Part shown: positions 60,224 to 64,000 of the stretch, in pieces
Layout of the letters: every line of letters begins with the position of its first letter
Position numbering within the stretch: position 1 is the first letter of the stretch
Assembly: GCA_033344815.1 (NCBI GenBank)
Contig: JAWPMR010000001.1
Coordinates: forward strand, 668,136 to 732,135
From: Paracoccaceae bacterium
GTDB taxonomy: Bacteria; Pseudomonadota; Alphaproteobacteria; Rhodobacterales; Rhodobacteraceae
Direction: 5' to 3'
Length of the DNA stretch: 64,000 nt
Notes under the pieces: generated by a model
The model's input: the letters and a program-made list of their open reading frames with translations, nothing else
Told to the model about the DNA's origin: nothing
Database searches by the model: none
Position numbers and translations under genes: made by a program

Positions 60224-60447
60224 TTTCCTTAACCCTTCTGAAATGAAACAACCCGATGTGGCAGTAGCACGTGCCTCCGGTGTTTTGCAAAAACGCAAAA
60301 TAACTTTGCCAACTTGCCCCTTTCGCAGGGGTTTTTGCAAGACTATGCTGTCAAAACAGAGCGACGATGTCATAATACCGCAAAGCCACACGACAGTCGC
60401 GCAGGCAGTGCCACGCAATACACCGCCCCACAACTTTGGAGAGCAAC

Positions 60448-61947
60448 ATGCAAGAATTAACCCACTATATGAACGGCGCACATGTCAAAGGCACGTCAGG
60501 GCGTTTTGCCGACGTCATGAACCCGGCCACCGGTGAGGTTCAGTCAAAATGCCCCCTCGCCTCCAAGGCAGAAGTTGAGCAAGCCGTGGCAATCGCGGCG
60601 GCGGCACAACCCGCATGGGCTGCTGTAAACCCGCAACGGCGTGCGCGTGTTATGATGAAATTTGTCGACCTTTTGAACCGCGACATGGACAAACTGGCCG
60701 AAGCGCTGAGCCGTGAGCATGGGAAGACGCTGCCTGATGCGGCGGGCGATGTGCAGCGTGGTCTGGAAGTGGTGGAATACTGCATCGGCGCGCCGCAGTT
60801 GCTGAAAGGTGAATACACCGACAGTGCCGGTCCTGGAATTGATATGTATTCCATGCGTCAGGCGCTTGGCGTGACCGCAGGGATCACCCCGTTCAATTTC
60901 CCGGCAATGATCCCGATGTGGATGTTTGCGCCCGCCATTGCCTGCGGCAATGCTTTCATCCTCAAGCCATCCGAACGCGATCCTTCGGTGCCTTTGATGT
61001 TGGCTGAATTGATGGAAGAAGCCGGACTTCCCAAAGGCATCTTGCAAGTCGTGAATGGCGACAAGGAAGCGGTGGATGCATTGCTGCACGATGAAATCGT
61101 TCAGTCCATCGGTTTTGTCGGTTCGACCCCGATTGCTGAGTACATCTATGGAACCGGCTGCGCGAACGGCAAACGGGTGCAGTGTTTTGGCGGTGCCAAG
61201 AACCACATGATCATCATGCCGGACGCCGATATGGATCAGGCGGCGGATGCGCTGATTGGGGCCGGGTATGGTGCCGCAGGCGAGCGCTGCATGGCAATTT
61301 CGGTCGCGGTCCCAGTGGGTGATGAAACCGCAGACAGGCTGGTTGAAAAGCTGGTTCCCCGGATCGAAAAGCTCAAAGTTGGTCCCTACACCGCCGGCGC
61401 GGATGTTGATTATGGTCCCGTGGTCACGGCGGCAGCAAAAAGCAATATCGAAAGACTGGTGCAAACCGGCATTGATCAAGGCGCAAAACTGGTCGTTGAT
61501 GGCCGTAACTTCAACTTGCAGGGTTATGAAGACGGCTTCTTTGTCGGACCACATTTGTTTGACCACGTCACCAAGGACATGGACATTTACAAGCACGAGA
61601 TTTTTGGTCCCGTCCTGTCTACCGTGCGGGCGCAAAGCTACGAGGAGGCGCTGGGGCTTGCGATGGATCACGAATATGGGAACGGCACGGCGATCTTCAC
61701 CCGCGATGGTGACGCAGCGCGTGATTTTGCCAACCGTGTCAATGTCGGCATGATCGGGGTCAACGTACCGATCCCCGTGCCTTTGGCGTATCACACCTTT
61801 GGCGGGTGGAAAAAATCAGTATTTGGGGATTTGAACCAGCACGGACCGGACGCATTCAAGTTTTACACCCGCACAAAAACGATCACCTCGCGGTGGCCAT
61901 CGGGCATCAAAGAAGGCGGCGAGTTCAACTTCAAACCAATGGAATAA
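60448..61947 (+). CDS. mmsA: Methylmalonate-semialdehyde dehydrogenase (CoA-acylating)
   Basis: A 499-residue aldehyde dehydrogenase of the MmsA class: GVTAGITPFNFPAMIPMWMF (~145), GSTPIAEYIYGTGCANGKRVQ, the nucleophile Cys in GERCMAISVAV (~280) and GPVLSTVRAQSYEEAL. It converts (methyl)malonate semialdehyde and CoA to propionyl- or acetyl-CoA in valine and myo-inositol degradation. ATG 60448 with GGAGA. In related operons an acyl-CoA dehydrogenase gene follows; here a 656-bp AT-rich gap does. Confidence 0.95.
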   Translation: MQELTHYMNGAHVKGTSGRFADVMNPATGEVQSKCPLASKAEVEQAVAIAAAAQPAWAAVNPQRRARVMMKFVDLLNRDMDKLAEALSREHGKTLPDAAGDVQRGLEVVEYCIGAPQLLKGEYTDSAGPGIDMYSMRQALGVTAGITPFNFPAMIPMWMFAPAIACGNAFILKPSERDPSVPLMLAELMEEAGLPKGILQVVNGDKEAVDALLHDEIVQSIGFVGSTPIAEYIYGTGCANGKRVQCFGGAKNHMIIMPDADMDQAADALIGAGYGAAGERCMAISVAVPVGDETADRLVEKLVPRIEKLKVGPYTAGADVDYGPVVTAAAKSNIERLVQTGIDQGAKLVVDGRNFNLQGYEDGFFVGPHLFDHVTKDMDIYKHEIFGPVLSTVRAQSYEEALGLAMDHEYGNGTAIFTRDGDAARDFANRVNVGMIGVNVPIPVPLAYHTFGGWKKSVFGDLNQHGPDAFKFYTRTKTITSRWPSGIKEGGEFNFKPME

Positions 61948-61954
61948 AAGAATT

Positions 61955-61977
61955 GGGGCGGCTCATTGAGCCGCCCC
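61955..61977 (+). terminator. Strong GC hairpin after mmsA
   Basis: GGGGCGGCTC (61955-61964) pairs with GAGCCGCCCC (61968-61977), a 10-bp perfect stem with a three-nt loop, 8 bp after the mmsA stop. No T-run follows, so termination may be partial. Confidence 0.6.
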
Positions 61978-62603
61978 GTACCGTTTAAAATACGTCGCCT
62001 TTTGAAATTAATAGACACCTTTCAGTGCCCGACCCCCGTATTATTGCGGGCCGAATCCAGCCAATGGCCGGAAAACGTAAAGCTGCTTGTTTTGTCTAAG
62101 GAAGCGAGGCTCCAATTGCCCGGCATCACAGGAAGACGACAGCTTAATCTTGCAAAAGTGTGTCTGTGTAGAACAAAAAGACCCACCCAATCTCTCTAGT
62201 CAGCGAAAACTTACCACAAGCGGACTTCCGCCGCAAAGAAATAATAGCAAAAAATGGTAACCGTGATATTGAGGGGAATTGCACGAAAGTATAAATTTTT
62301 AACTAAATAATACAGATGCTTAATAGGTAACGGCATTTGATTTGCTAAAGTCAACTCATGATTGAACGTACTACCCTTTAAGTTGCTTTTTTGATTTCGG
62401 CCCCAAAGACTCTCAGATTCATCGCAACTTTCCCGTATTACGATAATTTTTATTGACGAAATGATTCTTTGTTTTGAGTTCATTTCCCGAAGCCGGTCAG
62501 AGAATCAATCGAAGCTCCAAAGTCGGGCTGGAATGCGATGGGTCTTGAATGGCGCGCACAGCCAAGCAATACATCATCAAACAGTTTTGAAAGCCACCAC
62601 TCC
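61978..62603. other. AT-rich gene-free gap between mmsA and the fusion gene
   Basis: A 626-bp stretch, clearly more AT-rich (especially 62210-62480) than the rest. A - strand open frame (62211-62483) has no start or family and reads like noise. An acyl-CoA dehydrogenase gene often sits here in related loci, but no trace of one was seen. The promoter of the fusion gene presumably lies in the right part. Confidence 0.5.
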
Positions 62604-64000
62604 ATGAACGATATTTTCATTCGCGTTGTCGGAGCGACCGGACGCATTACGCTTGCACGGCCCGCGGCATTAAATGCACTGACCTATAAAATGTGTCTTG
62701 ATATTGAAACCGCCCTGGACAGTTGGCGCACCGATGCCAAGGTCGCGCAGGTTATCTTTGACGCTGAAGGAGACCGCGCATTTTGTTCGGGCGGGGATAT
62801 CGCTGAGTTGTACGCCACCGGCACCCGCAATGATTATGCTTACGGGCAAAAATTCTGGGCTGATGAATACAGGTTGAACGCGAAGATCTTTGAGTACCCA
62901 AAACCGGTCATTTCGTTTCTTCAGGGTTTTACGATGGGTGGCGGCGTCGGGATCGGGTGTCACGGATCGCACCGTATTGTCGGTGAAACCAGTCAGATCG
63001 CAATGCCAGAATGCGGAATCGGACTGGTTCCTGATGTCGGTGGATCGCTGATGCTCGCACTGGCCCCAGGACGCATAGGGGAATATCTGGCCATTACGGC
63101 GACGCGGATGACCGCCGCTGATGCCATTCTGGCCGGTTTCGCGGATTATTTCATCCCGGAACAGCAGTGGCCTGATCTGATTGCGCAGCTTGAAGCTGGT
63201 GCAACACCTGATGTTCTGGATGCGGCGGCAGAAACCGCGCCTGAGGGCGCGTTATCCCGAATGAGGCCCGACATCGACCGTCACTTTGGCGGTGAAACCC
63301 TGAGCGACATTCTCAGCAGCTTGAAAGGCGAACAAACTGACTTTGCCGCGCAAGCGCGCGAGAAGCTCAGCCGTAACAGCCCGCTTTCCATGGCTTGCGC
63401 GATAGAGATGATCCACAGGCTGCGCGGACCTTCGATCAACATCGCAAAGGCATTGGACCTTGAACATCGCTTTACTTTCCGCGCCATGGAGCATGGTGAT
63501 TTTCTCGAAGGCATACGCGCCGCGATTATCGACAAGGATCGCAAACCGAACTGGCAGTTTGCAGATCAGAAGGTCCCGGCGGCAGCGGTCAGCAAAATGC
63601 TCATGCCGCTGGGGAAAAGCGCATTGAAACTGGAGGAAAAGCACATGGATACGATCAAGGTGGGATTCATAGGGTTGGGCAATATGGGCGCGCCAATGGC
63701 GGCCAACCTCGCTGCGGCCGGATGTCAGGTGACGGGCTTTGACACCGCCAACACCACGGCGGAAGGGGTTGCAGTGGTGTCAAACCCCGCCGAGGCCGCC
63801 AAGGGTGCCGATGTTCTCATCACGATGTTGCCAAATGGCGATATCCTCAGACAGGTCGCGGCCGACGTGTTACCGGCTCTGCCAAAAGGTGCGTTGCTCC
63901 TCGATTGTTCCACCGTTGATGTGGAAAGCGCACGGGATGTTGCCTCGCAGGCAGCGTTCATGGGCTTGCAGTTCGTTGACGCCCCCGTCTCTGGTGGCAT
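62604..64000 (+). CDS. Fusion of 3-hydroxyisobutyryl-CoA hydrolase and 3-hydroxyisobutyrate dehydrogenase, 3' end outside
   Basis: One frame runs without a stop from ATG 62604 to the window edge (465 codons, C-terminus missing). Residues ~1-347 are a crotonase-fold hydrolase: FCSGGDIAELYATG (~55), FTMGGGVGIGCHG (oxyanion hole, ~110), MPECGIGLVPDVGG (with catalytic Glu and Asp of HIBYL-CoA hydrolase). From Met 348 (nt 63645) the 3-hydroxyisobutyrate dehydrogenase begins: KVGFIGLGNMGAPMAANLAA (NAD site), DCSTVDV and DAPVSGG. Codon positions 62604 and 63645 differ by 1041, a multiple of 3. GGAGG lies 8 nt before Met 348, so the second part may also be translated alone. Together they are consecutive valine-degradation steps after mmsA. 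Confidence 0.85.
   Translation, partial: MNDIFIRVVGATGRITLARPAALNALTYKMCLDIETALDSWRTDAKVAQVIFDAEGDRAFCSGGDIAELYATGTRNDYAYGQKFWADEYRLNAKIFEYPKPVISFLQGFTMGGGVGIGCHGSHRIVGETSQIAMPECGIGLVPDVGGSLMLALAPGRIGEYLAITATRMTAADAILAGFADYFIPEQQWPDLIAQLEAGATPDVLDAAAETAPEGALSRMRPDIDRHFGGETLSDILSSLKGEQTDFAAQAREKLSRNSPLSMACAIEMIHRLRGPSINIAKALDLEHRFTFRAMEHGDFLEGIRAAIIDKDRKPNWQFADQKVPAAAVSKMLMPLGKSALKLEEKHMDTIKVGFIGLGNMGAPMAANLAAAGCQVTGFDTANTTAEGVAVVSNPAEAAKGADVLITMLPNGDILRQVAADVLPALPKGALLLDCSTVDVESARDVASQAAFMGLQFVDAPVSGG

Follow-up and report, generated by a model that had tools for sequence, protein, structure and literature searches.

3-Hydroxyisobutyryl-CoA hydrolase (HIBCH) and 3-hydroxyisobutyrate dehydrogenase (HIBADH, or MmsB) catalyze successive steps of valine breakdown. 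Both are described as stand-alone proteins, the hydrolase in 4j2u, 4hdt, and 3bpt and the dehydrogenase in the TIGR01692 family, with 5y8g and 3obb. In-frame internal starts that give a functional C-terminal product are reported for archaeal Cas11b (PMC11899642) and for RpnS, which is encoded inside RpnL (PMC10327210). PMC10666635 deals with tightly coupled operon pairs, expressed by termination-reinitiation, and states that genes come to overlap most often when the upstream stop mutates to a sense codon. We searched open-licence PMC papers (titles and the starts of abstracts) for the fusion of these two enzymes, the roseobacter pathway, fusion routes, and inner starts, and none of the papers listed is on this fusion; sequence databases very probably already contain such proteins as single entries.

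The locus described here carries both enzymes in one open reading frame on the forward strand, at the end of the window (the whole stretch of 64,000 nucleotides that was analyzed, positions 668136-732135 of the single-contig genome, 5,082,563 bases long, of a marine bacterium). An earlier note had claimed that no stop separates the hydrolase from the dehydrogenase, that the dehydrogenase Met has its own GGAGG box, and that the catalytic residues of both parts are visible, and on these points it was right. The frame is open for the 465 codons from 62604 to 64000, and, when extended beyond the window as the note had proposed, it reaches a stop codon at window-equivalent positions 64527-64529 (527-529 bases past the window end). 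The complete chain has 641 aa and a calculated mass of 67.5 kDa, with 37.7 kDa before codon 348 and 29.8 kDa from that codon on. A mechanical reading places the start of the ORF at 62538, yet the matches of relatives start at or near 62604.

The first 347 codons (62604..63644, forward strand), including an ordinary C-terminal tail (...LKLEE), are predicted to code for a HIBCH on the basis of profile score and catalytic residues. Residues 13-332 match the Pfam family ECH_2 (PF16113, E 5.9e-106) over positions 2-334 of the 335 in the model, and residues 2-342 match the NCBIfam model NF004127 (3-hydroxyisobutyryl-CoA hydrolase) with 371 bits, against a cut-off of 274. E136, D144, and G112-G114 are invariant across 50 aligned fusions, and the acid pair E136/D144 is aligned in the solved relatives 4j2u and 4hdt; we take these two residues, found in the MPE...PDVGG stretch, to be the catalytic Glu and Asp of HIBCH. 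The genome contains 16 ECH_2 matches, and the fusion alone covers nearly the whole model. A second hydrolase candidate (L259) was discarded, as by eye it resembles an ordinary enoyl-CoA hydratase.

The dehydrogenase part starts at 63645 on the same strand and occupies 63645..64000 of the window (118 codons and two bases), running past the window end to a total of 294 aa. It matches NAD_binding_2 from residue 352 on, and in a whole-genome search it scores 360.1 bits against the HIBADH model TIGR01692, whose cut-off is 291.6, being the only one of eight HIBADH matches in the genome to exceed it (the seven others lie below). Together with the motif residues, this curated cut-off predicts a HIBADH. 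G357, G359, G362, S463-G465, K512, N516, and K587 are invariant across the same 50 fusions, and we assume that they have the roles of the Gly-rich NAD motif and of the catalytic Lys and Asn in the beta-hydroxyacid dehydrogenase family. In an AlphaFold model made from the alignment of the 50 fusions, the pLDDT averages 86 (pTM 0.68) and falls below 50 at residues 345-349 (the junction) and 552-579.

When compared with stand-alone HIBCH, the hydrolase part shows the same length as the aligned part of 4j2u, the same acid pair and glycines, and a C-terminal tail of the same kind; the difference is that it has no stop and the chain runs on into the dehydrogenase. In the same way, the dehydrogenase part shares with stand-alone HIBADH the score over the cut-off and the residues S463-G465, K512, N516, and K587, but here it is C-terminal within a larger chain and keeps start signals of its own. 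Judged by these features, the fused protein is most likely a bifunctional enzyme.

Upstream of the fusion, the ORF at 60436..61947 (forward strand) is a pathway neighbor that we take to be mmsA, coding for methylmalonate-semialdehyde dehydrogenase. A homolog of this gene was found upstream in 48 of the 139 loci scanned, many of which come with only about 1.5 kb of upstream DNA. The distance between the mmsA homolog and the hydrolase (window 61948-62603) is 660 bases here and 68 to 1230 bases in those genus loci that have a match, 17 of 19; in the other loci with a match, it is mostly 1150 to 1530 or about 1900 to 2700 bases, which leaves room for more genes. Downstream, past the window, there is an ORF of 447 aa (L003, 4731-6074) that by eye looks like a member of the MmgE/PrpD family. 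A scan for promoters and terminators gave no clear excess over shuffled sequences.

The codon at which the dehydrogenase starts in unfused relatives is the ATG at 63645-63647 (forward strand), codon 348 of the fusion and a likely internal start. Its putative Shine-Dalgarno sequence, GGAGG at 63632-63636 (forward strand), lies within the coding frame at a spacing of 8 bases and has a duplex energy of -9.3 with the 16S tail, compared to -0.4 at the hydrolase's own start (window 62584-62603), which has almost no Shine-Dalgarno. The residues just before this Met, GKSALKLEEKH, had been described in the earlier note as an 11-residue linker, and it had suggested comparing them with relatives in which a stop separates the genes. 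That comparison gives a different picture, since the hydrolases of these relatives have comparable tails. The solved stand-alone protein 4j2u_A aligns to residues 1-346, and its chain ends two residues later with a tail of the same kind (ALTFEEE), so that little before the Met is extra. GKSALKLEEKH thus appears to be mainly the natural tail of the hydrolase. Unfused members of the family have hydrolases that end, for example, in ...LTFEED, ...LTFEEE, or ...LKL, and their dehydrogenase Met stands mostly a few codons after the hydrolase end, or overlaps it, with longer spacers in some. The Glu-Glu-Asp/Glu tails of these unfused relatives are coded mostly by GAG GAG GAN, which is a Shine-Dalgarno sequence well spaced from the dehydrogenase Met. 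With the tail being mostly the hydrolase's own, fusion would have required little beyond the loss of an in-frame stop.

One fusion, L040 (G216), has a longer junction, with extra residues after the hydrolase tail and 653 aa overall, which suggests a different route to fusion. The predicted tryptic peptides of the junction are NALTLEDVAMTK in G011, LEENAMTHPK in Roseobacter sp. H9, and only HMDTIK in the genome of the window.

The frame is open at the junction in 19 of the 19 genomes of the genus, the other 18 of which have proteins with 72-80% identity to that of the window. An artifact of sequencing or assembly, or a stop lost recently in this strain alone, would be in keeping with the presence of unfused relatives with a junction stop in the same family, but the 19 genomes belong to distinct species and their open frames refute it, so we ruled this explanation out and give it practically no weight. 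In the family draw (394 genomes, from 393 genera by code, 330 of them matching at E 1e-100), at least 46 of the 394 genomes are fused. We classified 90 places, namely, the 87 best (full or nearly full-length matches) and three partial ones, and found 46 fused and 44 with a same-frame stop; two of the fused ones are at contig edges (G287 and G161), and two (G000 and G018) come from one genus. The other 304 genomes of the family have separate, lower, or no matches, so that 46 of 394 is a lower bound. The fusion architecture, which the earlier note had proposed to look for in other genomes, is thus present in the whole genus and in a good number of its relatives.

Of 80 loci taken from named organisms, 79 allowed a classification and 14 of these are fused, among them those of Sulfitobacter brevis, Thalassovita taeanensis, Thalassococcus profundi, Marivita hallyeonensis, Pelagimonas varians, Thetidibacter halocola, Tropicibacter naphthalenivorans, and Maliponia aquimaris. 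All 10 loci labeled Ruegeria have a stop or the two genes in different frames. The hydrolase and dehydrogenase genes are also in different frames in Tritonibacter mobilis (L142), presumably the same species as Epibacterium mobile. A roseobacter proteome paper (PMC6308992) is on Epibacterium mobile.

Outside the family, the class draw (385 genomes, 43 matching at E 1e-100) gave 32 spanning matches, each with at least one stop as counted by the search program, and the 26 of these that were classified were all unfused; in the phylum draw, which overlaps the class draw (398 genomes, 96 matching at E 1e-80), the 16 outside-family spanning matches listed also had at least one stop each by the program's count, and fusions too distant for these E thresholds would escape both draws. 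Because every listed spanning match outside the family has at least one stop, the unfused state is likely the ancestral one.

Gene trees were built from L004-L033, L035-L143, L144-L200, and five class loci, without identical rows and without rows in which either enzyme part was short (such as the fused L196; L201, also short, lay outside the starting set). The resulting 179 distinct rows comprised 68 fusions, 89 loci having a same-frame stop, and 22 with the genes in another frame. The fewest state changes were 14 on the 179-row tree (FastTree; 68 fused and 111 not) and 16 on a hand-picked tree of 65 rows (28 of the 68 fused and 37 of the 111 others; quick IQ-TREE), on gene trees in which many inner branches are weak and gains are not told from losses. 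A single inherited fusion was rejected, as one fused clade costs 591 lnL units on the hand-picked 65 rows. The fused state is scattered over these trees and probably arose several times, and our claim is for recurrence and not for a number of gains.

Within the open frame, all 68 distinct fused loci retain a start codon for the dehydrogenase, ATG in 66, GTG in one (L015), and TTG in one (L163). Of the 19 genomes of the genus, 18 have Met in column 348 and one has Val (GTG), and columns 346, 347, 349, 350, and 351 hold 7, 11, 9, 6, and 7 residue types. Many Mets elsewhere in the fusion are conserved as well, so that retention of this Met is weak when taken alone, and we used it only against the neighboring linker columns. 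We also considered that Met 348 could be held for packing, which is unlikely, as its distance to the Rossmann motif differs (6 codons from the inner start in the genus and 3 in most other fusions) and the residue at -3 in the genus can be I, L, R, T, P, A, or G.

The Shine-Dalgarno energy at the inner start is -5.5 or better in 67 of the 68 fused loci, with weak sites (-5.5 to -6.3) in nine of them (L006, L021, L037, L040, L042, L048, L057, L064, and L158). Among 1610 other in-frame ATGs, 80 reach the score of the junction in their own locus. In 59 of the 68 loci, the dehydrogenase has a stronger site than the hydrolase, and in 1 the two are equal. The sole fused locus without a Shine-Dalgarno at the inner start is L084, from an uncultured Marivita, which makes it a natural candidate for a single-product fusion.

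These data can be set against the expectations of a plain bifunctional fusion, in which only the 67.5-kDa chain is made and the inner signals are leftovers, or the tail residues matter to the hydrolase. Such a fusion agrees with the lack of a stop, which makes the fused chain unavoidable when the hydrolase is translated, and with the LTLEED and LTFEED tails, which occur in unfused hydrolases too. It also agrees with L084, where the Shine-Dalgarno has proved dispensable at least once, which means that not every fusion can depend on internal initiation. Leftovers would be expected, however, to erode as their neighbors do, and here the start codon is kept in all 68 loci while the flanking linker residues are not.

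The choice of codons at the junction also bears on this alternative. We made 1000 synonymous recodings per locus with the amino acids kept, which renders the test conservative, on rows that are related to each other; p was below 0.05 in 19 of the 68 loci, with the remaining 49 individually not significant, and 64 of the 68 junctions beat the middle of their own recodings (below 0.5), four doing no better. Column controls, which share the relatedness of the rows, gave a similar bias for three residues. Leu343, in the Shine-Dalgarno, is the only one of the 30 invariant Leu columns of the genus with xTG in 19 of 19, and Glu344 has the highest share of GAG among the 14 Glu columns of the genus (15/17, followed by column 268 with 15/18). 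The ten FRE-type fusions code their junction Arg by AGG in 10 of 10 cases, whereas none of the remaining 19 invariant Arg columns uses AGG more than once in ten; AGG represents 3.5% of the Arg codons in the fused genes. When the linker Glu codons of the genus are pooled, 26 of 30 are GAG, versus 47% (p 6e-6, with relatedness uncorrected). The junction Leu, Glu, and Arg codons are thus biased toward the Shine-Dalgarno relative to conserved columns of the same residue, something that leftovers would not be expected to show, and we consider the plain fusion unlikely, though deserving of attention. The putative ribosome-binding site and start are conserved at the nucleotide level inside the open frame, and both seem to be kept beyond the needs of the protein sequence, with the per-locus synonymous test significant in 19 of the 68 loci only.

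A different use for the inner Shine-Dalgarno-like stretch would be to slow ribosomes at the domain boundary for folding, with no initiation. Slowing by stretches of this type in coding regions has been proposed and is controversial (PMC5100845), and the stretch in the fusion does fall at a domain boundary, where the model has its pLDDT below 50 at 345-349. Pausing would nevertheless leave unexplained why all 68 loci retain a start codon downstream, with only GTG and TTG as replacements, and we regard this explanation as very improbable.

The explanation that we favor, and find probable, is that the gene has two products, a bifunctional hydrolase-dehydrogenase that is obligatory and a separately initiated dehydrogenase of 29.8 kDa. 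The earlier note had offered the bifunctional chain and a recent stop loss with internal initiation as alternatives, and in our reading both probably hold together. The first is favored by the lack of a stop in all 19 genomes of the genus and by the invariant active-site residues, and the second is supported, from sequence, by the start in 68 of 68 loci and the Shine-Dalgarno in 67 of 68. What does not stand is that the loss was recent, as the whole genus shares the fusion and the linker columns on either side of the start show 6 to 11 residue types in 19 genomes, with the start kept.

A possible sequence of events begins with an arrangement that is frequent in the family, with the hydrolase and dehydrogenase genes end to end. 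A tightly coupled gene pair is the likely starting state of the fusion, and in many unfused members the last codons of the hydrolase (GAG GAG GAN) also provide the dehydrogenase with its Shine-Dalgarno. Where the genes were in frame, a mutation that removed the hydrolase stop would then have joined them, which probably happened several times. With the stop gone, a ribosome on the hydrolase must continue into the dehydrogenase, and every ribosome that translates the hydrolase would produce the 67.5-kDa chain with both active sites. Other ribosomes would bind the kept GGAGG and start at codon 348, giving the free 29.8-kDa dehydrogenase, a second product that we infer from the conserved signals. 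Dehydrogenases of the HIBADH kind act as oligomers. A likely reason for a second product is therefore that free subunits would go into mixed oligomers and provide additional dehydrogenase. The free dehydrogenase may supplement or complete these mixed oligomers, and it may help to draw free 3-hydroxyisobutyrate to methylmalonate semialdehyde.

This arrangement has points in common with the described systems. Many of the unfused relatives resemble the tightly coupled operon pairs of PMC10666635, with stop and start within a few bases and the Shine-Dalgarno in the upstream gene, but the fused genes have no termination step, and a free second protein would need fresh internal initiation. The reports on Cas11b and RpnS describe, as here, one frame with an inner start and a C-terminal part that becomes a separate protein (in our case, a putative one); unlike them, the fusion concerns two metabolic enzymes of successive steps, joined by stop loss of neighboring genes, seemingly more than once. 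On balance, we lean toward a repeated one-gene, two-product design, in which successive enzymes of valine breakdown would have been fused again and again by stop loss with the inner site and start under selection, so that the cell would have a tethered enzyme and extra free dehydrogenase, probably in mixed oligomers.

Fusions are usually read as a plain gain in channeling. The fusion described here suggests that joining two genes need not end the independent supply of the downstream enzyme. A single family offers a series of overlapping genes, in-frame genes separated by a stop, fusions that have an inner start, and a fusion without the Shine-Dalgarno, which would make the steps from operon to fusion testable. 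For annotation, a gene of this type would appear as one protein, and its second product would be missed.
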